In this document: positions 4,689 to 27,349 of the stretch, in pieces | Layout of the letters: every line of letters begins with the position of its first letter | Position numbering within the stretch: the first letter of the stretch is position 1 | Source of the DNA: Niveispirillum cyanobacteriorum | Lineage (GTDB): Bacteria; Pseudomonadota; Alphaproteobacteria; Azospirillales; Azospirillaceae | Direction of reading: 5' to 3' | Length of the DNA: 64,000 nucleotides | NCBI RefSeq assembly: GCF_002868735.1 | Contig: NZ_CP025611.1 | Location: forward strand, 1,978,501 to 2,042,500 | Translations under genes and position numbers: made by a program | The notes under the pieces: model-generated | What the model was told of the DNA's origin: nothing | The model's database searches: none | Seen by the model: the letters and a program-made list of their open reading frames with translations, nothing else

Positions 4689-6614
4689 TTATGACGGAAC
4701 TATCAGCCGCCAGACATCAACCAGCGCCACCCGCCCGCGCAGGGAAAAGGCGCCGATGGGGGCCAGCGGCATGTCGATGGTGCAGTTGCCGGCGGCGCGG
4801 ACGGTATCGTCGCTGACCAGCACGACATAGCATTCATCGCCCATCATTTCGCCGCCCAGCGCCTCCAGCCGGGCCGCCGTATTCACGGTGTCGCCGACGA
4901 TTGTGTAGTTGATGCGGGTCGCGGCCCCGATATTGCCGACAATCACAGGGCCAGAATGCACACCAACACGCAGGCAGACAGGCGGCCGCCCGGCGACGCG
5001 GGCCTCTTCTGCCTCCTCCGCCACGACCTGGGCGATGGCGTGGGCGGCACGCAGGGCGCGGGCTGCATGGTCGGGCTGTTCATCGGGCGCGCCCCAGAAG
5101 GCCATAACGGCATCGCCGATGAACTTGTCCACGGTCCCGCCCTCCGCCTCGATACAGGCGGCGATGCGGGTGAAATGCCGGTTGAGCCAGTCCGCCGTCT
5201 CCTGCGGCGACATCTTTTCCGCCATGGCGGAGAAACCCTTAATGTCGGTGAACAGGACCGTCACCTCCCGTTCCTCCGACGGGATTTCGGCCTGCGCCCC
5301 GTCACGGCGGATCAAGCGCAGGACCAGCGATTTCGGCACATAGGTCTCAAACCAGCGCAGGCCGCTGATCATGGCGTTGAAGGCGGCGGCGGCGTCCGCC
5401 ACCTCCCGGAACCGGCTGTCGGGCAGGCGCGGCACATTCTGGAAATCCAGGTCGCGCAGGGCAACGGCGGCCCCGGACAGCAGACGGATGCGCCGGCTGA
5501 TCATCTTGCCCACGATCATCGCGGCCAGAACCGACCCGATCAGGATGCTGAAGCCGACGACCAGTAGATGCTGGAACCGTTCGATCTCGCGGTCCACATC
5601 CTCTTCCCGCATCACCGCAACCAGGGTGAAGGGATGCTCACCATAGTCGGAGATCGAGCGCAGCAGATAGAAGTAAGAGACGCCATCCACCTCGGCCTGC
5701 CGGAATTGCACATCACTGCGCCGTTCATGCACGCGGGTATCGACCTTCTTGCCCTCGTTCCATTTAGCCAGCTTGGTCCCCACCCCGTCCGGCCCCACGA
5801 CGGACCAGATAGAGGCTGCCACGGGGTCGCCCACTTCCTCCAGGGTCGGCAGGGGTGGGCGGCCCGTCACCTTGGAGAAGTCGAACTTGCGTTCCGCCAA
5901 GGCCGGGTGGGCCAGGACGTAATGGTCATCGAATAGGATGAAGGCGGAGATGTCGTTCTCCATGCCCTTGTCGGCATCCCGCAGGAAACGCGACAGGCCA
6001 TTGAAGCCCACGACCGACGCGACGGCGCCGATGAACTGCCCATCCTTGCGCAGCGGGCCTTGCACCGGCATCACTGTGGTGGCGATCTCGTCGGCCCAGA
6101 TCGGGTCCAGCCAGTGGGCCGATCCGGTCTTCAGCACATCGGCCAGGATTTCCGCCGCGTCCGCCGGCTTGTCCATGGAAAAGGCCGATTCGGTGTTCAC
6201 CATACGGGTGGCGCCCAGCATCCTGCCATCTTCCGCACGCAGCACTCCGATGCCCGCCACCTGCGGCGTGGCGGCCAGCGCCCCCCGCGTCAGCGTCTCG
6301 ATCCGGTCCTGATCCTGGATTGACACTTGCCCCATAGCCAGCAGGTTGGTCAGATAATCCACCTGATTGCGGGCCGGGTCGAGCTGGGCACGTACCCGCG
6401 CCTCCACCATGTTCATGGCCAGCTCGGCCTTGTCGGCCAGCAGGTTGTAGGTGTTGCGGCCCGATGTCTGTACGCCCAGCCAGAAGACGCTGGCCACCGC
6501 CACCAGCATCAGTCCGCCGAAACCCAGCGTCAGGACAAGGGTGATGGGCAGACGCCAACGGCCTTTACGAGCGGTCGTCTCTTCACATCCGGGCAGGGTC
6601 AGCATGGTCTTCAT
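4689..6614 (-). CDS. Membrane-bound class III adenylate cyclase with periplasmic sensor and HAMP
   Basis: The 641 residues read as an N-terminal helix (22-46), a long periplasmic Cache-like sensor region (about 50-345), a second helix (348-369), HAMP (370-422) and a class III cyclase domain (450-620). Metal-binding Asp residues are in FTDIKGFS (D457) and GDAVMAFWG (D501). Lys497 in VDKFIGD and the GDTVNTAARLE motif fit adenylate rather than guanylate cyclase specificity. The product would be cAMP made in response to an extracellular signal. A cyclic-nucleotide-binding protein gene is 1.6 kb upstream on the same strand, a plausible effector. Confidence 0.9.
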   Translation of the reverse strand: MKTMLTLPGCEETTARKGRWRLPITLVLTLGFGGLMLVAVASVFWLGVQTSGRNTYNLLADKAELAMNMVEARVRAQLDPARNQVDYLTNLLAMGQVSIQDQDRIETLTRGALAATPQVAGIGVLRAEDGRMLGATRMVNTESAFSMDKPADAAEILADVLKTGSAHWLDPIWADEIATTVMPVQGPLRKDGQFIGAVASVVGFNGLSRFLRDADKGMENDISAFILFDDHYVLAHPALAERKFDFSKVTGRPPLPTLEEVGDPVAASIWSVVGPDGVGTKLAKWNEGKKVDTRVHERRSDVQFRQAEVDGVSYFYLLRSISDYGEHPFTLVAVMREEDVDREIERFQHLLVVGFSILIGSVLAAMIVGKMISRRIRLLSGAAVALRDLDFQNVPRLPDSRFREVADAAAAFNAMISGLRWFETYVPKSLVLRLIRRDGAQAEIPSEEREVTVLFTDIKGFSAMAEKMSPQETADWLNRHFTRIAACIEAEGGTVDKFIGDAVMAFWGAPDEQPDHAARALRAAHAIAQVVAEEAEEARVAGRPPVCLRVGVHSGPVIVGNIGAATRINYTIVGDTVNTAARLEALGGEMMGDECYVVLVSDDTVRAAGNCTIDMPLAPIGAFSLRGRVALVDVWRLIVPS

Positions 6615-19161: not shown

Positions 19162-19428
19162 ATGGACAGCGTGAACCTCGCCGATGTCGCCAGCAACCTG
19201 ACCCGCCTGATCGAACGGGCCGAGGCGGGGGAGGAGATCATCATCTACCGCGCCGGTCGTCCCGTGGCCCGGCTGATGCCTCCGGTGGCGGGGGCAGCGG
19301 CATCTCCAACGCCAAAGCCAAAGAGGCAACTTGGGGTCCTGGCCGGGCAAGGCTACTGGATCGGCGATGACTTCGATGATCCCTTGCCGGAGGAGATGGA
19401 ACGGGCGTTCCGGGGGGAAGGTACGTGA
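19162..19428 (+). CDS. Phd/YefM-type antitoxin of a VapBC pair
   Basis: An 88-residue protein whose first 45 residues (MDSVNLADVASNLTRLIERA, GEEIIIYRAGRPVARLMP) are the Phd/YefM DNA-binding fold. The acidic tail (DDFDDPLPEEMERAF) is the usual toxin-wrapping segment. The ATG has GGAGGC upstream. Its stop overlaps the toxin GTG start in GTGA, so the two are translationally coupled. It should neutralise the PIN-domain toxin and repress the pair. Confidence 0.9.
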   Translation: MDSVNLADVASNLTRLIERAEAGEEIIIYRAGRPVARLMPPVAGAAASPTPKPKRQLGVLAGQGYWIGDDFDDPLPEEMERAFRGEGT

Positions 19429-19811
19429 GGCTATTGCTCGACACGCATGTATTCATCTGGTCGGCACTGTCTCCAGACCGGCTCCCCGCCCATATCATTG
19501 ACGCAATCTGCTCGGGCGACAATGACATCATCATCAGCACCGCCAGCATCTGGGAAATCGCGATCAAGGTGAAAACCGGACGTCTGGCCTTCCCTCTGGG
19601 CCTGCTGCCCGAGATTCTGCATCGTATGGATATGCAACTACTGGATATCCATCTTGACCATGTTCTGGAGGCGGGAAACCTCCCGCTTCACCACAACGAC
19701 CCGTTCGACCGCATGTTGATTGCACAGGCCAGGATGGAGGCTTTGCTGCTGGTGACGGCAGATGCGATGATCCCAACCTACGCGGTGAAGACCCTGTCGG
19801 CGCGGGCGTGA
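19425..19811 (+). CDS. PIN-domain toxin (VapC family)
   Basis: A 128-residue ribonuclease toxin with the four acidic positions of the PIN domain: Asp in LLLDTHVFIW (D6), Glu in SIWEIAIK, and Asp residues in NDPFDRML and VTADAMI. The DTHVFIW start marks the subgroup common in alphaproteobacteria. It begins with GTG overlapping the antitoxin stop by four bases. The pair sits between the esterase and gloB genes with no mobile-element remnants visible. Confidence 0.92.
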   Translation: MRLLLDTHVFIWSALSPDRLPAHIIDAICSGDNDIIISTASIWEIAIKVKTGRLAFPLGLLPEILHRMDMQLLDIHLDHVLEAGNLPLHHNDPFDRMLIAQARMEALLLVTADAMIPTYAVKTLSARA

Positions 19812-19824
19812 GAAAGGGTAGTCC

Positions 19825-20595
19825 ATGGTTGAAGTGCATGTCGTTCCGGCACTGACCGACAATTACATTCACATCCTGCATGACGCGGCCCATGGCATTA
19901 CCGCCGTGGTGGATCCGGGTGAGGCGGGGCCGGTGCGCGCCTTTCTGACCGACCGCGGCTGGCGGCTGACCCATATTCTGGCCACCCACCATCATGGGGA
20001 CCATATCGGCGGCATCAACGACCTGCGCGCCGACAGCCACGCGATGTTGATCGGGCCTAAGGCGGAGATGGAGCGCATCCCCGAAATGGACGCCACTTAC
20101 GGCGATGGCGACAGCTTCACCCTGGGCAGCCAGACCGTCCGCGTCTTTGACACGCCGGGCCATACGCGCGGCCATTGCGCCTTTTTCTGTGAGGAGGCGC
20201 GGCTGCTGTTCAGCGGCGATACCCTGTTCTCGCTCGGCTGCGGGCGCCTGTTCGAAGGGACGGCAGCCCAGATGTGGGACAGCCTGTTGAAACTGCGGGC
20301 CTTGCCGCCCGAAACCCGAATTTACTGTGGCCATGAATATACGGCCAGCAATGCCCGGTTCGCGCTGTCCATCGACCCGGACAATCTGCCCCTGAAAGCC
20401 AGGGCGGAGCAGGTGGCAGCGTTGCGGGCCAAGGGCCTTCCCTCCATTCCCGCCCGCCTGTCGGATGAGTTGGCGGCCAATCCCTTCCTGCGCGCCGATG
20501 ACCCGTTGCTGGCCGCCCATTTCGGCCTGACCGGCGCGCCGCATGCCAGCATCTTCGCCGCCATCCGCAAGGCGAAGGATGATTTCCGGGGCTGA
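19825..20595 (+). CDS. gloB: Hydroxyacylglutathione hydrolase (glyoxalase II)
   Basis: The 256-residue metallo-beta-lactamase-fold enzyme splits S-D-lactoylglutathione to D-lactate and glutathione, ending methylglyoxal detoxification. The binuclear metal site is shown by THHHGDHIGG (about 53-62), DTPGHTRGHCAFF and FSGDTLFSLGCGRLFEGT; YCGHEYTASNARFA is the substrate/metal segment. The length is normal. It is followed by a GST gene, consistent with a glutathione-related group. Confidence 0.96.
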   Translation: MVEVHVVPALTDNYIHILHDAAHGITAVVDPGEAGPVRAFLTDRGWRLTHILATHHHGDHIGGINDLRADSHAMLIGPKAEMERIPEMDATYGDGDSFTLGSQTVRVFDTPGHTRGHCAFFCEEARLLFSGDTLFSLGCGRLFEGTAAQMWDSLLKLRALPPETRIYCGHEYTASNARFALSIDPDNLPLKARAEQVAALRAKGLPSIPARLSDELAANPFLRADDPLLAAHFGLTGAPHASIFAAIRKAKDDFRG

Positions 20596-21245: not shown

Positions 21246-21703
21246 ATTTCATGAACCATCTGACGCCAAGGCAGATCATCGACCTGCTGGGCATGCGCCC
21301 GCATCCCGAAGGCGGTCATTATGTGGAAACTTTCCGCGCACGCGCCCCTGACGGCGGACGGGCAGCCCATACGGCCATCTATTTCCTGTTGCAGGCGGGG
21401 GAATATTCTCACTGGCACCGGGTACTGGATGCCGATGAGATCTGGCATTTCCATGCCGGCGCGCCGCTGGTCCTGACCATGTCGCCCAACGGCCATGATG
21501 CCTCGGCCCACCATCTGGGCAGTGATCTGGCCGCTGGTCACCGGCCCCAGATCATCGTGCCCGCCGGCCATTGGCAGACGGCGGTCAGCCTGGGGGCCTG
21601 GACGCTTGTGGGATGCACCGTGGTGCCGGGCTTTGAATTCGCGAAGTTTGAGCTGGCCCCGCCCGACTGGCGGCCAACCCCACGGAAACCGTCAGGAGCC
21701 TGA
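21242..21703 (+). CDS. DUF985 cupin-fold protein
   Basis: The 153-residue protein matches the COG3542/DUF985 cupin family: LGMRPHPEGGHYVETFR, AIYFLLQAGEYSHWHRV, DEIWHFHAG, and LVGCTVVPGFEFAKFELA. The His/Glu set in SHWHRV and EIWHFH is a likely metal or ligand site of a beta-barrel. The function of the family is unknown. The ATG at 21242 overlaps the GST stop; a second ATG at 21251 is possible. Its end overlaps the convergent nrsF-like gene by 12 bases. Confidence 0.88.
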   Translation: MNFMNHLTPRQIIDLLGMRPHPEGGHYVETFRARAPDGGRAAHTAIYFLLQAGEYSHWHRVLDADEIWHFHAGAPLVLTMSPNGHDASAHHLGSDLAAGHRPQIIVPAGHWQTAVSLGAWTLVGCTVVPGFEFAKFELAPPDWRPTPRKPSGA

Positions 21704-22348
21704 CCTGTCCCCCTGGCGCCAGCGGAACAGCACGCGGCCCAGCGGCGCCAGCATGGCACCAAGCATGACGATGGCCACAACCTGGATCGCCACCAACAGG
21801 GGGGCATCCAGATCGTCATGGATCATCCGCTCCCCGAACACCGCCATGCCGCCCCCAGCGATCAGCAGCAGCGCCATCATGCGTACCGGTGCCACCGGGG
21901 CCGCGCGGCGCATGTCGGCGGCCAGGAACAGGGCCGACCCGATGGAAATGACAGGAAAGCACCAGGGGCAGAACAGATGCACCAATTCCGGCATGTCATG
22001 CGCCGCCGCATCCTGATGCCCGCTTTCCCACAGGACCAGCATCCAGAACAGGGCTGCCGGCAGCCAGATCATCCGCTCCCACCCCCGCCGTCCCGGCACG
22101 GAAAAGGAAATGGCCGCGAACCCGGCCAGCAGCGCCGTCACCAACGCCAATCCCTGTTCCGCCAACCAGTCAACCCGCGTCACCACCAGCGACAAGTCTC
22201 CGCGCACCCCATGCCAGGTGGTGGCCAGCAGCATCAATCCGATGGACAGGATGGCCCAGCGCAGCAGCCGCAGAACCGGCGGCGGCAGACGGCGGGCAGG
22301 GGTCCCCTCCGCGCTCAACCGGTCGATCAGGTGGCTTACATCAGCCAT
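21692..22348 (-). CDS. nrsF: NrsF-family (DUF1109) anti-sigma factor, membrane
   Basis: The 218-residue protein has a short cytoplasmic N-terminus (MADVSHLIDRLSAEG) typical for sigma binding, then about six hydrophobic segments. A CPWC motif (about C127/C130 from the chosen start) lies in the loop before a helix and is a candidate metal- or redox-sensing site; in the Caulobacter homologue conserved Cys residues are needed for sensing. The ATG at 22348 overlaps the sigma gene stop; an ATG three codons earlier is also possible. It should hold the ECF sigma factor at the membrane until metal stress. Confidence 0.85.
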   Translation of the reverse strand: MADVSHLIDRLSAEGTPARRLPPPVLRLLRWAILSIGLMLLATTWHGVRGDLSLVVTRVDWLAEQGLALVTALLAGFAAISFSVPGRRGWERMIWLPAALFWMLVLWESGHQDAAAHDMPELVHLFCPWCFPVISIGSALFLAADMRRAAPVAPVRMMALLLIAGGGMAVFGERMIHDDLDAPLLVAIQVVAIVMLGAMLAPLGRVLFRWRQGDRSGS

Positions 22349-22892
22349 GGTCCACATCCTTCCGCAACAATTGCCGCAGCCCCGCGATGCCGCGATGTAC
22401 GGCCACTTTCAATGCCCCGACGCTGACGCCACTGGCCTCGGAGGCTTCCTTCAAACTCATGCCCTGAACCTTCAGCATATCGATGGCCACCCGCTGCCGC
22501 TCCGGCAGTTGCGACAGCAACGGCCCCAGATTGACACTAGGCGGCACATCACCCTCCGGCTGCGGCACGGTGTCGGCCAAACCGTCATCGAACTCCGTCT
22601 CCACGGCCCGGCGGCGATAGGTGCGGCGCAAGGCATCCGACAGCCGGTTGCGTGCAATCGTACCCAGCCAGGGGCCCACCGGGCGCCCCGGCTGATAGGT
22701 CGGCAGGGCCTGGTGCAGGGCCAGCAGCGCATCCTGCACAAAATCCTCCAGATCGGCGGGTCGGGCCAGCTTCCCCCGTCCGACCGCCCGAACCAAGGGC
22801 ACGGCAGCGCGCAGAAAGGCGCCATAGGCGACGCGGTCGCCCTCCTGCGCGGCCGTCAGTAATCGGCCAAGATCCGAATCCTTGTCCGTCAC
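22341..22892 (-). CDS. ECF-family RNA polymerase sigma factor (SigF-like)
   Basis: The 183-residue factor has region 2 (about 20-85: FLRAAVPLVRAVGRG, DLEDFVQDALLALHQ, YQPGRPVGPWLGTIARNRLSDALRR) and region 4 (about 125-175: LPERQRVAIDMLKVQGMSLKEASEASG, ALKVAVHRG). The start is set at GTG 22892, which follows GGATGGGG; the frame is open farther upstream but overlaps the preceding gene. It is directly coupled to the nrsF gene and lies in the bufferin operon, so it probably transcribes this operon from the GTAACC/CGAA promoter at 25700-25724. Confidence 0.9.
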   Translation of the reverse strand: MTDKDSDLGRLLTAAQEGDRVAYGAFLRAAVPLVRAVGRGKLARPADLEDFVQDALLALHQALPTYQPGRPVGPWLGTIARNRLSDALRRTYRRRAVETEFDDGLADTVPQPEGDVPPSVNLGPLLSQLPERQRVAIDMLKVQGMSLKEASEASGVSVGALKVAVHRGIAGLRQLLRKDVDHG

Positions 22893-22917
22893 CAGCACCC
22901 CATCCGACCCAGTACCG

Positions 22918-23190
22918 TCACTTAGGCGGCTGTGAAGGCTTGGCAACGCCGTGTTCTTCCAGGAAGGCCTTGAATTTCTTGGCATCCAGGAAATAGAGGT
23001 CAAGGCATTCATTGAACTTATCCGGGTCCTTGATGGCCTTGCAGAGTTGTTCGGCCTCCTCGTTTGCCGTCTGCTTCTGCGCCTTTTCCGAGGCGCTCAT
23101 GCCGGGCGCGCTGTTCTGTGCCAGGGCCGGCGGGGCAAAGGCCAACAACAGCACCGGCAGAAAGGGCAGGAAGCGGCGAACAAAGGACAT
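22918..23190 (-). CDS. Small exported protein of unknown function in the bufferin operon
   Basis: The 90-residue precursor has a clear signal peptide (MSFVRRFLPFLPVLLLAFAP to ALAQ, 1-25). The mature 65 residues are helical and charged, with two Cys 12 residues apart (LCKAIKDPDKFNEC) and a Pro-rich end. I do not recognise the family. It lies 4 bases after the DoxX gene and 25 before the sigma factor, inside the operon, so it is probably co-expressed. A periplasmic accessory for metal handling or peptide maturation is a guess from context. Confidence 0.7.
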   Translation of the reverse strand: MSFVRRFLPFLPVLLLAFAPPALAQNSAPGMSASEKAQKQTANEEAEQLCKAIKDPDKFNECLDLYFLDAKKFKAFLEEHGVAKPSQPPK

Positions 23191-23194
23191 GGCG

Positions 23195-23701
23195 TCACCT
23201 CGCAGTCAGGACAGGATCAAGCAGACGTCGCCACAGGCCACGCAAGGCCGCATCCAGCGACAACAGCCCCGGCCCCGTCAGGAACAGGACCAGCCCCACC
23301 ATGATCCATGGAATCTGTTCCGCCGCAATGGCGATACCATTCTCAATCCCCTCCGGCGTGCGGCCGATCACCAGGAACAGCACCGCCGACATCACCGCCA
23401 GCCCCGCCGCCCCGACACGGCCCGCCAGCCCAAGCGCCAGCAGGAGGCTAAGCACAATCTCCGCCCCTGTGGTCAGCGGTGCCGCGATAACCGCCGGCAG
23501 AAAGGGCACCGGATGGACATCGGTGAACAGGAAAGCCTGGCTGTCCCATGTGAAGACGCGGTGCCAGCCGGCGGTGGCGAACGGCCAGGCCAGCCAGAGG
23601 CGCCCCAGCAGCAGGAGCACCGCACCGCCCCAGCGCACGGGCAATGCCGCCCCGACGGTGGGGCCCGGATCGACCAGAAGGCGCAGCGTTGAGCGGATCA
23701 T
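23195..23701 (-). CDS. DoxX-family membrane protein (BufD-like)
   Basis: The 168-residue protein has four hydrophobic helices (about 23-45, 68-88, 90-112 and 130-150). GRLWLAWPFATAGWHRVF and AEIVLSLLLALGLAGRVGAAGL are typical of DoxX. DoxX proteins commonly follow bufABC genes. It overlaps bufC by four bases (ATGA), so expression is coupled. The role in bufferin systems is not established; a membrane redox function is one proposal for DoxX proteins. Confidence 0.85.
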   Translation of the reverse strand: MIRSTLRLLVDPGPTVGAALPVRWGGAVLLLLGRLWLAWPFATAGWHRVFTWDSQAFLFTDVHPVPFLPAVIAAPLTTGAEIVLSLLLALGLAGRVGAAGLAVMSAVLFLVIGRTPEGIENGIAIAAEQIPWIMVGLVLFLTGPGLLSLDAALRGLWRRLLDPVLTAR

Positions 23702-24453
23702 GGTTGCTCACCATCGGTTACGGCGGCGATCAGCCCTTGGCCGAGCAACAGCGCCAACAGCGGGGAAAGCGCGCCGGCATCCCGCAGATGCCCGGCCGCC
23801 GTCAGAAGATCGGCCCCCTCGGACAGGGCCTGGACAAAGCCGCCGGCATCGGGCGGCAGCAATGTCGCCAAGACCAGCAGGTCCGGCCCACGCCAGATCA
23901 GCGCCACTGCCTCCGGCCCGACGAGCGGCAGGGGTGCGGCCACTCCCTTGATATCCGCCCGCCCCTCCCACCATGGGCTCAGGACGGACAATGGTCCGGC
24001 CACCAGCGAAGAGGACAGCACCAGCGGCAGACGCAAGCGGGCCAGCGCATCGGGGACGTAAGGCGCTAACGCTGCTGGCCCTACTGGATCGGCATCAGCA
24101 GCGAAATAGGCACAATGCGCAGCCCAATCGGCAGCGGCTAGCACGGGTAACTCCCCCGCCAAATCCGCCCCGAACCCTTTGCCATAGGCCGACAGCATAG
24201 CCTGTCCCGGCGGGTGGGCCCGCAGATGGCGTTTCGCCGCCTCCGCGAAGGCATCCGTCCCCATGGCCCGCTCCACACTGGGATAGGCTTGGGCCAGGAC
24301 ACCAGTCAGGGAAGCCGTGACGGTGGCGGTGTGGATGAACAAGGCCTTGTCGGCCGGCACGGCGGCAGGGCGCAGAAAGGGCAGCGCGCGGGCAAACTCC
24401 GCAGCATCGCCATAACAGGCCCCCAGAATGGCGCGTTGCAGATCGATCAGCAT
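23698..24453 (-). CDS. bufC: DUF2063 protein, bufferin-modification partner (BufC-like)
   Basis: The 251-residue protein starts MLIDLQRAILGACYG, the usual opening of the DUF2063 (HvfC/BufC) fold, and carries FIHTATVTASLTGVLAQAYP and LSAYGKGFGADLAGELP, also family-like. In related systems the C protein docks the precursor leader onto the MNIO enzyme. The ATG at 24453 overlaps the bufB stop by seven bases. The second half is poorly conserved, as is common. Confidence 0.85.
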   Translation of the reverse strand: MLIDLQRAILGACYGDAAEFARALPFLRPAAVPADKALFIHTATVTASLTGVLAQAYPSVERAMGTDAFAEAAKRHLRAHPPGQAMLSAYGKGFGADLAGELPVLAAADWAAHCAYFAADADPVGPAALAPYVPDALARLRLPLVLSSSLVAGPLSVLSPWWEGRADIKGVAAPLPLVGPEAVALIWRGPDLLVLATLLPPDAGGFVQALSEGADLLTAAGHLRDAGALSPLLALLLGQGLIAAVTDGEQP

Positions 24454-25307
24454 GAGGCCGCCCCCCGCACCGCATCCGCCTTTGCCGCCTGGGCCAGCAG
24501 CACCGGCAGCGGTGGCAGGGCCGTATCCCATTCCACCAGGGTAGGGCGTGGCCCAAACTGACGGGTGGCAAGGTCATACAGGGCCCAGACCGGGTCCGGT
24601 ACGGCGCTGCCATGATCATCAATCAGCAGGGTGGCGCCATCCACATCCAGGCTGGCATGGCCGGCAAGATGGATTTCCCCGACCGCATCGCCGGGAAAGT
24701 GCCGCAGCAGCCGTGCCGCGTCCTGCCCCCGGTTGCGGGCCGAGACATAGAGATTGTTGAGGTCCAGCAGCAGGCCGCATCCCGTGCGGGCCACCAGCGC
24801 CGCCAGGAACTCCCCCTCCTCCATCTGGTCCTCCTGGAACCGCAGATAGACGGACGGGTTTTCCACCAGCAGACGCCGGCCCAGCGCATCCTGCACCCGC
24901 TGTACATTGCCGGCGACGATGTCCAATGTCTCCGTCGTCAGCGGCAGGGGCAGAAGGTCGGGCACATGCGTACCGGCCAGACCGGTCCAGGCCAGATGAT
25001 CCGACACCATCGCCGGCTCAAACCGCGCATAAAGCGCCTTCAGCCGGGCCAGATGCTCTCCATCCACGCCATCAGCAGCACCCAATGACAGGGCCACCGA
25101 ATGGAAGGAGATGGGATAGTCCTGACGCAGCCTTTCCAGCTGCGCCAGACGCGGACCGCCGGGCACCAGATAGTTTTCCGCATGCACCTCCAGCCACCCG
25201 ACCGGCTGCGCCGCCGTCAGAAAATCCGGCACATGCAGGTGCCGAAGCCCGACGCCGGCCGTATCGGCCAGGCCTGGGATGGTGGGGGGATGGGCCGGGG
25301 GGCGCAT
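24447..25307 (-). CDS. bufB: DUF692/MNIO enzyme (BufB-like)
   Basis: The 286-residue TIM-barrel protein is a multinuclear non-heme iron oxidase of the MbnB/HvfB/BufB family. It shows GVGLRHLHVPDF, EVHAENYLVPGG, ISFHSVALSLG, VSDHLAWTG, LVENPSVYLRF, LLLDLNNLYVSA, GEIHLAGH and DDHGSAVPDPVWALY, which supply the His/Glu/Asp iron ligands. In characterised bufferins the enzyme converts Cys residues of the precursor into thiooxazole-type groups that bind copper. It lies 26 bases after the precursor gene. Confidence 0.93.
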   Translation of the reverse strand: MRPPAHPPTIPGLADTAGVGLRHLHVPDFLTAAQPVGWLEVHAENYLVPGGPRLAQLERLRQDYPISFHSVALSLGAADGVDGEHLARLKALYARFEPAMVSDHLAWTGLAGTHVPDLLPLPLTTETLDIVAGNVQRVQDALGRRLLVENPSVYLRFQEDQMEEGEFLAALVARTGCGLLLDLNNLYVSARNRGQDAARLLRHFPGDAVGEIHLAGHASLDVDGATLLIDDHGSAVPDPVWALYDLATRQFGPRPTLVEWDTALPPLPVLLAQAAKADAVRGAASC

Positions 25308-25333
25308 GCGGAAACCTGCTGGAAGGGCGATGC

Positions 25334-25633
25334 TTACTTCTTGGCCTTGGTGTTGGTGCCGTCGAAGGCGGTCATGCTGCCGCCAGCGGCTTCACAGGCT
25401 TCCTTGGTCATGGCCTTGAAATCCTGGCCGCTGTAATCGACCTTGGACTGGGTGGCGCAGGAATGACCGGCGGCCTTGTTGGCGCAGTCATTCTCGCCGG
25501 CCTTGGACACGCCATAGCACTTCACCTTCTCCCCCTCGGCGGCATGGGCCGGGGCGGCGATGGCGGCCAGCGACAGGGCACCGGCGACGGCGGCACCAAG
25601 GGTCAGGGCGGTCAGGCGGACGGAAGTCGACAT
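25334..25633 (-). CDS. bufA1: Bufferin precursor peptide (BufA1, DUF2282)
   Basis: The 99-residue protein is a DUF2282 bufferin precursor: a Sec signal used as leader (1-31, cleaved at AHA) and a core with four Cys, C39 in KCYGVSKAG, C50 in NDC, C59 in HSC and C80 in KEAC. The spacing and the KCYGV opening are typical. After modification by BufB/BufC and export it should bind copper or other metals in the periplasm. It is the first gene of the operon, with a promoter candidate 67 bases upstream. Confidence 0.92.
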   Translation of the reverse strand: MSTSVRLTALTLGAAVAGALSLAAIAAPAHAAEGEKVKCYGVSKAGENDCANKAAGHSCATQSKVDYSGQDFKAMTKEACEAAGGSMTAFDGTNTKAKK

Positions 25634-25699
25634 GGGTGCATTTCCTTTGAACGGGGTCCAGGGAGAAGCGGCGCCGTCATCGGCGTCCGTATCTCTCCA

Positions 25700-25724
25700 T
25701 TCGCTGCCGGTTGGCGAAGGTTAC
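25700..25724 (-). promoter_or_regulatory. Predicted ECF (SigF-type) promoter of the bufferin operon
   Basis: Reading the minus strand, GTAACC (-35 like, 25724-25719) is followed after 15 bases by CGAA (-10 like, 25703-25700). As I recall, GTAACC/CGAA is the motif described for Caulobacter SigF targets, which include an equivalent operon. The predicted start would leave a leader of about 60 bases before bufA1. Confidence 0.6.
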
Positions 25725-25849
25725 ACCAGGAGCCAAAAAATTTTCGGCGACTGTGAAATTCTCGATGCCGGCCTGCTTAAGCCATTGAGCTTTTGTCGGA
25801 ATTCGGCCAGCCTCTCCATGGGTCAACCGACTGTCGGAGGGCGTGGCGC

Positions 25850-27349
25850 ATGGCGGCTGACAGCTGGCACTTATGGCCGGCCCGGGCCTTGCGCACGGCG
25901 ACGGACCTGTTCCTGCCCGCCCCGATGCGCGAACGCGGCTTTGATGAGAAGGCGCTGCTGCGTGCCCGGGCCTTCATCCGCGTTACACTGCTGATCCTGA
26001 CCGGTATTCTGGTGCTCTACACCGTCTGGGCCGTGAATGAGGGGCCGTTCGATCCCGTCAGCCTGACCTGGGCCGTTTATGCGCTGCTGGTCGGCGGCAA
26101 TCTGGTGCTGGTGCGCCTCACCGGGCGGTTTCATGAGATCACGATTGCCAATAATCTGGCGGGCCTCAGCCTGATCGCCATCCTGCTGCATTATACGGAC
26201 GGCATCGCCTCCCCTCTGGTGCCGCTGTTCCTGACGGCCTTAGCCACCACGGGCAATTTCGGCGGCAACCGCGCCATCCTTTATTTCTTCTCGGGCTTCC
26301 TGGCCGTCATCTGCGGCACCTATGCCTGGCAGATTTACAGCGGGGAGGCGCCCGCTGATATCCACAGCCGATTCGCCTTTCTGCTGACGGCGCTGCTGCT
26401 GCTGGTGCTGGCAAACCTGTCCTCACAATCGGCCCGCACCAAGACGCGGCGCATGCTGGCCCAGGCGCGCGACGCCGCGATCGAGGGGCGGCGGCGGGCC
26501 GAGAAGACCCTGGGTGACCTGCGCGAGGCGCAGGAACAGATGATCTTGCAGGAAAAGATGGCCAGCCTCGGTTCCATGGTGGCCGGCGTGGCGCATGAGG
26601 TGAACACGCCCGTGGGTCTGGCTGTCACCGGCGCCTCGCAGTTGCGCACCGAAACCGCCAGCATTCTGGCGCTGGCTGCACAGGGGCAACTGCGCCGCTC
26701 CACCTTTGATGAGTATCTGAAGGTGGTGGATGAGTTGGCGACCCTGATCGAAAAAAATGCCACCCGTGCCGCCGAACTGATCCAATCCTTCAAGGAGGTG
26801 GCGGTGGATCAGTCGTCCGACGCCCGCCGTCCCTTTGACCTGCGGGCCTATGCAACCGAGGTGCTGGCCAGTCTGGCACCGCGCATCCGCCATGCCGGGC
26901 ACAGGGTGGAAATGGCCGTGCCCGACGGGATCGAGATGGATGGCCATCCCGGCGCCATGGCCCAGATCATCACCAATCTGGTGATCAATTCCATCGTGCA
27001 TGCCTACCCTGACGGGCAGCGTAACGGCACCCTGCGTCTGGCCGCCCGTGTGCTGGATGGGGACCGGGTCGAACTGGCCTATAGCGATGATGGCCGGGGT
27101 ATTCCCCGTGAACTCTGGCCCCGCATCTTCGAACCCTTTTTCACCACCCGCCGGGGCACGGGCGGGTCCGGCCTGGGTCTGCATCTTCTGTATAATATCG
27201 TGACGGTGCGGATGGGCGGTACGGTGCGGGTGGGTGCTGCCCCCCAGGGTGGGGCCCTGTTCACCCTGACCTTCCCCCGGATCAGCCCCGGAAAGCCCCC
27301 GGAACCGGGCCTGGACGACCTGTCCACCGACCATGTTGCAGTGCAATAA
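25850..27349 (+). CDS. Membrane sensor histidine kinase (orphan)
   Basis: The 499-residue kinase has about six hydrophobic helices in residues 40-205, a coiled coil (about 210-250), the H box GSMVAGVAHEVNTPVG with the phospho-acceptor His, an N box (ITNLVINSIVHAYPDG), G1 (SDDGRGIP), F box (FEPFFTTRRG) and G2 (GSGLGLHL). Its receiver partner is not adjacent. The ATG at 25850 follows GGAGGGCG. It is divergent from the bufferin operon across a 216-base spacer, so a link to metal sensing is possible but unproven. Confidence 0.9.
   Translation: MAADSWHLWPARALRTATDLFLPAPMRERGFDEKALLRARAFIRVTLLILTGILVLYTVWAVNEGPFDPVSLTWAVYALLVGGNLVLVRLTGRFHEITIANNLAGLSLIAILLHYTDGIASPLVPLFLTALATTGNFGGNRAILYFFSGFLAVICGTYAWQIYSGEAPADIHSRFAFLLTALLLLVLANLSSQSARTKTRRMLAQARDAAIEGRRRAEKTLGDLREAQEQMILQEKMASLGSMVAGVAHEVNTPVGLAVTGASQLRTETASILALAAQGQLRRSTFDEYLKVVDELATLIEKNATRAAELIQSFKEVAVDQSSDARRPFDLRAYATEVLASLAPRIRHAGHRVEMAVPDGIEMDGHPGAMAQIITNLVINSIVHAYPDGQRNGTLRLAARVLDGDRVELAYSDDGRGIPRELWPRIFEPFFTTRRGTGGSGLGLHLLYNIVTVRMGGTVRVGAAPQGGALFTLTFPRISPGKPPEPGLDDLSTDHVAVQ

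Follow-up and report, generated by a model that had tools for sequence, protein, structure and literature searches.

What controls a bufferin operon that carries, among its own genes, those of a sigma factor and its anti-sigma factor? The question is raised by a minus-strand run of seven genes (21692-25633) in a stretch of 64,000 nucleotides from Niveispirillum cyanobacteriorum (NZ_CP025611.1, positions 1,978,501 to 2,042,500 of the forward strand), here called the window, which lies on a contig of 3.4 Mb in a genome of 6.05 Mb and five contigs. The genes are, in order, bufA, bufB, bufC, doxX, the gene of a small exported protein that we call SEP, an extracytoplasmic function (ECF) sigma factor gene and nrsF (Table 1). 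At a probability of about 0.6, we read the locus as a one-promoter, self-contained bufferin operon with a metal-sensing NrsF; that an operon of this kind is under its own sigma factor is very probable in our judgement. Statements on published systems extend to the parts of the cited papers that were available to us.

An earlier note on this DNA had described seven minus-strand genes of named families, and six of the seven were placed by Pfam profiles above cut-off: DUF2282 in the bufA product (58.6 bits), MbnB_TglH_ChrH in that of bufB (335.1 bits), DUF2063 in that of bufC (48.1 bits), DoxX (45.1 bits), Sigma70_r2 and Sigma70_r4_2 in the sigma factor (54.5 and 42.1 bits) and NrsF (PF06532; 59.9 bits against a cut-off of 26.8). 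The bufB product also matched the NCBIfam model MNIO_BufB (366 bits, cut-off 310) and could be aligned with PDB entry 3bww. Among the NCBIfam matches listed, the bufA precursor reached the BufA2 model only, below its cut-off (38.7 against 60), the sigma factor matched only the sigma70-ECF superfamily model, and DoxX, sigma and NrsF attained no specific cut-off. The N-terminus of the bufA precursor has a hydrophobic stretch followed by a likely cleavage site, AHA/A (the signal peptide was judged by eye), and its four cysteines are invariant in all eight Niveispirillum proteins aligned. Judged by the Pfam domain and the four cysteines, the precursor is a member of the published Buf1 family (PMC12452194), and genes for a BufB-type MNIO enzyme and a DUF2063 partner lie beside it, as expected of a Buf1 cluster. 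The families and the gene order support a bufferin operon of the Buf1 type that encloses the genes of an ECF sigma factor and of NrsF, as had been proposed. A mass shift on all four cysteines, suggested as a test of the product, would be the wrong thing to look for, because the first and last cysteines form a disulphide and only the central ones are modified, to thiooxazoles, in a Buf1 precursor (PMC12452194).

The genes are closely packed, with gaps and overlaps of at most 26 bases, as the note had said. The largest gap is that between bufA and bufB (26 bases); bufB and bufC overlap by 7 bases, bufC and doxX by 4, and sigma and nrsF by 8, while doxX and SEP are separated by 4 bases and SEP and sigma by 19-25, depending on the start of the sigma gene, which is uncertain.

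We surveyed 82 genomes of the order, including 11 of Niveispirillum (genus g1). DUF2282 was found in 46 of the 82 and NrsF in 21; within the genus, both were present in the same nine genomes (the carriers) and absent from the same two. All eight Niveispirillum copies that lie whole on a single contig, that of the window among them, keep the seven-gene order, which was constant across relatives down to 48% NrsF identity. The ninth carrier (G072) has a cut SEP gene, sigma and nrsF at a contig end and bufA on a separate contig. The two other Niveispirillum genomes (G066 and G067) gave no match to DUF2282, NrsF, SEP or the tight promoter motif described below, as if the unit had been gained or lost whole.

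Residues at two sites of NrsF

The NrsF protein of Caulobacter has two conserved cysteines, C131 and C181, and their change to serine raises basal expression (PMC3511200). In OsrA of Bradyrhizobium, C129 is needed for sigma binding and C179 for the response to peroxide (PMC3420878). We aligned 70 NrsF rows, of which 69 were readable (that of G734 is an unreadable fragment); the rows are not a random sample and were partly chosen for likeness, and the counts are not frequencies. The alignment did not include Caulobacter NrsF and OsrA themselves, and the columns were matched through rows with cysteine at both sites. Site 1 was cysteine in all 69 readable rows. At site 2 we found cysteine in 22 rows, histidine in 42 and glutamate in 5.

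The CPWC motif reported earlier was found at residues 127-130 of the window's NrsF, at site 1. Twelve rows have a CxxC there: nine are all those of Niveispirillum, always with histidine at site 2, and three have glutamate. The combination of CP[WYL]C at site 1 with histidine at site 2 was present in 9/9 Niveispirillum proteins and in none of the 60 other rows. The cysteine pair of the two-Cys NrsF/OsrA subtype is thus absent in this genus, where the first cysteine is kept and the second is histidine in all nine, a replacement that the earlier note had missed, and we do not assign the proteins to that subtype. The three rows with CxxC and glutamate come from G180 (L169), G251 (L173) and G547 (L221), and two further proteins (G788 and G747) have glutamate at site 2 with a single cysteine at site 1. 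The NrsF proteins of genus g82 (G150 and G510) differ from those of Niveispirillum in having a single cysteine at site 1 and, at site 2, a histidine preceded by cysteine. One genome, G033, holds two NrsF proteins (L079 and L082), one with histidine and one with cysteine at site 2, a natural pair for comparing signals.

Hydropathy places C127 and C130 where the fourth transmembrane segment begins and H177 in the loop that precedes the last one, all on one side of the membrane. Given a cytoplasmic N-terminus and six segments, the three residues would be periplasmic. Kohler et al. ruled out an intramolecular bond between C131 and C181 of the Caulobacter protein under stress (PMC3511200). We read site 2 as a metal ligand because cysteine, histidine and glutamate can all bind metal, and an intramolecular disulphide would need cysteine. 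We put the chances that NrsF senses by metal coordination rather than by a disulphide at about even.

The CPWC motif has the spacing of the CxxC found in redox motifs, and a different reading is that it works as a thioredoxin-like disulphide switch, with sigma and NrsF answering to oxidants such as peroxide or hypochlorite and the operon being an output of oxidative stress. The requirement for Cys179 in the peroxide response of OsrA (PMC3420878), the hypochlorite-responsive NrsF-type system of Brucella (PMC8315932) and the impaired resistance to oxidative stress in stationary phase that is described for a Caulobacter sigF mutant (PMC8224329) are all in line with it. However, the column of the cysteine needed for the peroxide response is histidine in 9/9 Niveispirillum proteins and in 33 other rows, and SigF-dependent genes of Caulobacter were not induced by agents that generate reactive oxygen (PMC3511200). 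We consider an oxidant switch unlikely here.

The promoter before bufA and the gene layouts

Upstream of bufA we found the motif GTAACC-N15-CGAA. Its first base is position 25724, which the earlier note had given as the end of its stretch and had left unnamed as a promoter. The motif of Caulobacter SigF is GTAACC-N16-CGAA (PMC3511200), and the ECF16 consensus, (T/C)GTAAC-N17-CGAA (PMC8315932), has an identical spacing. The site before bufA has both elements of the ECF16 promoter, (T/C)GTAAC with CGAA, and the Niveispirillum spacer is one base shorter than the published one. It is the single match to GTAACC-N14-18-CGAA in the window, and since at least one match also turned up in 15 of 100 shuffled versions of the sequence, the motif alone is not significant in 64 kb. 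Over the whole genome the GTAACC-type pattern (N14-17) was rarer than its reversed control (23 vs 55). The weight of the site rests on its position and conservation, not on its occurrence in the window. The 15-base spacer was kept in 8/8 Niveispirillum loci (the window included), with the motif 81-106 nt upstream of bufA. A tight form, GTAACCTT-N13-CGAA, occurred exactly once per genome in all nine carriers, always before bufA, and in neither of the two non-carriers; its reversed control gave one site across the 11 Niveispirillum genomes. The tight form was picked after inspection of eight bufA sites, and while the matches before bufA are not independent of this choice, the absence of other sites is.

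Eight full-operon Niveispirillum loci of 14-16 kb each contained no second GTAAC[CA]-N14-17-CGAA. Judged by these scans, the promoter before bufA is the sole recognisable promoter for the sigma gene in Niveispirillum. Since it is of the type used by such sigma factors, the sigma gene appears to lie downstream of its own likely target. In several relatives with two-Cys NrsF proteins (G001, G033a, G059, G061, G064 and G065), a GTAAC[CA] site stands directly before the sigma gene.

We also considered a wider regulon and rejected it as unlikely. The relaxed form, GTAACC-N15-CGAA, had 1-6 sites per genome, fewer than its reversed control in all but one of the 11 genomes (G067 had 3 vs 1), and the bufA site was the only one present in all nine carriers. 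One site in the window's own genome precedes an open reading frame that we take to be an HxlR-like regulator.

If the regulators were mere neighbours of the buf genes, most transcription of the sigma gene would start within doxX or SEP, at a promoter of its own or a housekeeping one, and there would be no amplification through the bufA promoter. In Caulobacter, SigF and a second, still unknown regulator both act on sigF (PMC3511200), an arrangement that would keep a basal level, and our scan for the sigma-70 consensus is a weak one (no site found, 0.4 expected in shuffles). On the other hand, the short gap between SEP and sigma leaves 19-25 bases, no second SigF-like site was found in the eight loci, and the order is fixed across Niveispirillum relatives with NrsF identities as low as 48%. 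We regard this explanation as distinctly improbable.

Outside Niveispirillum, a buf gene that adjoins the sigma gene is mostly divergent from it. Thirteen NrsF loci, each 12-14 kb long, came from the order's other genera: two had a divergent bufA beside the sigma gene (G058 and G053), two had bufA within the stretch but kilobases away (G017 and G023) and nine had no bufA. In a class-wide sample of 28 loci, fetched with the Niveispirillum NrsF profile from the 33 matching genomes outside the genus with 1.5 kb on each side, bufA was divergent beside the sigma gene in nine, doxX stood right before the sigma gene in one (G150), and 18 had no buf gene. Twenty loci from the phylum, hand-picked from 81 matching genomes with low scorers favoured, comprised three divergent ones (G667, G513 and G628), one with the regulators inside (G510) and 16 with no buf gene. 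In wider stretches, two genomes of genus g82 (G150 and G510) were found to have bufA-bufB-bufC-doxX-sigma-nrsF on one strand with no SEP match; G150 has a GTAACCTT site before bufA. The idea that the whole operon is unique to Niveispirillum was therefore rejected, both on account of these two genomes and because Buf1 clusters that include a sigma gene and nrsF have already been published.

A tree of the sigma factors was built from 48 rows of 50 loci; L147 (no sigma match) and L163 (sigma in two pieces) were left out, and Caulobacter SigF was not among the rows. The nine Niveispirillum sigma factors grouped together (100/99). G150 grouped with G058, G033b, G140 and G432 (96/76, a fork drawn as open) and not with Niveispirillum. 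This separation points to more than one origin of the regulators-inside order; an ancient arrangement of this kind with many later losses is still conceivable. A search of plasmid records, which may leave out records near the window's genome, found no NrsF relatives.

Among known systems, CC3254-CC3257 with sigF-nrsF of Caulobacter crescentus is alike in gene families, promoter type and the order precursor, MNIO, DUF2063 and DoxX, but sigF-nrsF has its own promoter there, the regulon comprises eight genes in three units, NrsF has Cys131 and Cys181, and the regulon table lists no SEP-like gene (PMC3511200). The rpoE7-ecfR7 pair of Sinorhizobium meliloti with SMb20530-20527 shares the Buf-type operon, an ECF16 sigma factor and GTAAC-type promoters; it differs in that the operon is divergent from the regulators, with two promoters, and that both NrsF cysteines are conserved (PMC6180224). 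Buf1 clusters that also encode a sigma factor and NrsF form a published class of organisation (Antoine et al., 2025; PMC12452194). The text examined of that paper is silent on how their genes are ordered and which promoters they use, and the regulators-inside order may be included; it names no SEP-like gene and reports further conserved genes in extremely low proportions (PMC12452194).

SEP and the neighbouring genes

SEP has a signal-like N-terminus, and 14 aligned sequences, among which the fragment from G072 was not included, have 17 invariant columns, the start methionine and two cysteines among them. Neither Pfam nor NCBIfam gave a match to the window's SEP at E 0.01. Weak, scattered Pfam matches elsewhere in the family (the best being Defensin_propep, E 0.00019, in 4/14, and PepSY_2, E 0.0051, in 5/14) were read as chance and rejected. 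The predicted structure has three helices in residues 33-79 with middling confidence (mean pLDDT, a per-residue score, 67.5); no fold match in the PDB was found at E 0.001, and the best PDB sequence match had E 0.59. The ratio of nonsynonymous to synonymous substitution rates was 0.12-0.32 over seven pairs, which indicates purifying selection.

Within the order, SEP was found in 15 of the 82 genomes, in genera g1 (9/11) and g11 (Nitrospirillum; 6/7) only, and in the class sample in 2 of 385 genomes, both Niveispirillum. A pattern-based scan of 84,980 species, with one genome per species, gave 13 loci, all in members of g1 or g11. In the collections searched, SEP thus appears as a lineage-restricted family, confined to Niveispirillum and Nitrospirillum, a restriction that the earlier note had also missed. 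The six g11 loci (L071, with SEP at 6148-6420, and L072-L076; 11-12 kb) contained no match to the window's buf, doxX, sigma or nrsF proteins, and up to 350 bases upstream of SEP in these stretches no GTAAC[CA]-N14-17-CGAA was found. In the g11 locus that was read gene by gene, SEP lies between genes that we take to be adenosine-deaminase-like and TonB-receptor-like. Three g11 genomes (G060, G062 and G063) have SEP and no NrsF match genome-wide.

A role of SEP as an additional precursor acted on by the MNIO enzyme, and not as a helper, is very unlikely: it is small, looks exported, has two invariant cysteines and stands before the sigma gene in 9/9 carriers, but in g11 it lies apart from the window's other operon proteins in 6/6 loci, with the presumed TonB-receptor-like neighbour in one, its cysteine contexts are unlike those of BufA, and its core is predicted, with the middling confidence given above, to be helical. 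Clusters with tandem precursors are known (PMC12452194).

Table 1. Positions of the operon genes, the promoter motif and the NrsF codons in the window.
Feature	Position	Strand	Basis
Sigma-type promoter motif GTAACC-N15-CGAA, 91 nt upstream of bufA start	25700..25724	-	motif match
bufA, Buf1 (DUF2282) precursor, 99 aa, four Cys	25334..25633	-	Pfam
bufB, MNIO maturase	24447..25307	-	NCBIfam, Pfam
bufC, DUF2063 partner protein	23698..24453	-	Pfam; ATG at 24453
doxX, DoxX-family membrane protein	23195..23701	-	Pfam
SEP, small exported protein, 90 aa, invariant C50 and C62, no known family	22918..23190	-	
ECF sigma gene; GTG start uncertain, 22898 or 22892	22341..22898	-	Pfam
nrsF, membrane anti-sigma, 218 aa	21692..22348	-	Pfam
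CPWC codons of nrsF (C127, C130; residues 127-130)	21959..21970	-	
His177 codon of nrsF, column of the second conserved Cys in other NrsF proteins	21818..21820	-	

A sensor histidine kinase gene lies divergent from bufA at 25892-27349 (+). It was rejected as part of the operon, with a match of at least 40% identity in one of the seven other Niveispirillum loci that hold bufA, as was a convergent cupin gene, present in two of the eight other Niveispirillum loci, the closest relatives only. Farther away, a small open reading frame at 19425-19811 (+) presumably encodes a PIN-domain protein resembling VapC toxin, and the one right after it (19825-20595) what we take to be a glyoxalase-II-like protein.

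The proposed circuit

In the one-promoter operon with a metal-sensing NrsF, basal ECF sigma would be held at the inner membrane by NrsF. A soft metal in the periplasm, most likely Cu(I), would bind a site formed by CPxC, at the outer end of the fourth transmembrane segment, and His177, in the last periplasmic loop. Metal-bound NrsF would free the sigma factor, and sigma-bound RNA polymerase would start at GTAACC-N15-CGAA before bufA and read the whole operon, probably as a single transcript. BufA would be modified by BufB and BufC, exported, and would buffer the metal. As sigma and NrsF would come from the same transcript, both would rise, and the switch would be reset once the metal is bound. 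SEP may be a periplasmic, helical two-Cys protein recruited to the operon, where it could aid metal or thiol handling.

The metal is suggested by Caulobacter, where the genes of the SigF regulon are induced by copper, to which a sigF mutant is sensitive (PMC8224329). Under copper, sigF rose there by log2 4.44, 4.70, 2.78 and 2.17 in four conditions and nrsF was also up, the overall range for the two being log2 1.84 to 4.70, with 1.84 marked as passing the weaker test only (PMC8224329). Chromium and cadmium induce the SigF regulon as well, and under these two metals sigF is described as not strongly autoregulated (PMC3511200). We think copper rather probable as the main natural signal in Niveispirillum.

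Several points weigh against this reading as a whole. A CxxC at site 1 is not unique to Niveispirillum, a possibility that was rejected, since the three other rows that have it carry glutamate at site 2. The greedy hydropathy count of NrsF gave five transmembrane segments, the sixth (about 93-110) being placed by eye, and the AlphaFold2 model (mean pLDDT 49.6) is too poor to support closeness of CPxC and His177. Kohler et al. leave intermolecular disulphides and a further sensor possible (PMC3511200), and other NrsF-type anti-sigma factors answer to peroxide (PMC3420878) or hypochlorite (PMC8315932). In S. meliloti the similar operon and the sigma gene were unresponsive to H2O2, cadmium and chromate in reporter assays, in a passage that names no copper (PMC6180224). 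The sigma-70 consensus scan of 21600-25900, which found no site with 0.4 expected by chance, has little power. Finally, some relaxed-motif sites recur in two or three genomes: one sequence is common to G000, G070 and G072, another to G071 and G075 with a near copy in G069, and a further one to G071 and G075; the regulon probably, though not certainly, has a single member.

The earlier note had proposed a self-amplifying circuit that follows from regulators lying inside the operon. The position of the sigma gene downstream of what is likely its own target agrees with this. Such a circuit is plausible by analogy but not novel (PMC12452194, PMC8224329), and amplification neither needs nor follows from this layout, because sigF and nrsF of Caulobacter are induced by copper despite their own promoter. 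What the layout would add is that sigma, anti-sigma and output would rise together from one promoter, and this may serve resetting as much as amplification.

We searched the literature, with most subscription papers lying outside the search, and found no report of a histidine at the second NrsF site, of a SEP-like gene or of Niveispirillum together with a sigma factor. Relative to the parts of the literature examined, the combination of CP[WYL]C and histidine in NrsF, the SEP family and the regulators-inside order in a second genus are new, and for the specialist the interest lies in the NrsF site and the SEP family rather than in the operon itself. The NrsF proteins studied so far depend on a pair of cysteines, of which the second is missing from 47 of the 69 readable rows, and the pattern of cysteine, histidine and glutamate can be tested by point mutation. 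A more far-reaching and quite tentative view is that NrsF is a direct periplasmic metal sensor whose ligand at site 2 drifts between cysteine, histidine and glutamate, Niveispirillum having a three-ligand version, CPxC with histidine, with a single promoter, a single target operon and SEP as a dedicated two-Cys co-sensor. If true, such drift would explain why some relatives, with cysteine at site 2, respond to peroxide and others mainly to metal. And if the operon is transcribed as it looks, it would be a natural minimal circuit in which the control of bufferins could be studied without a wider regulon.

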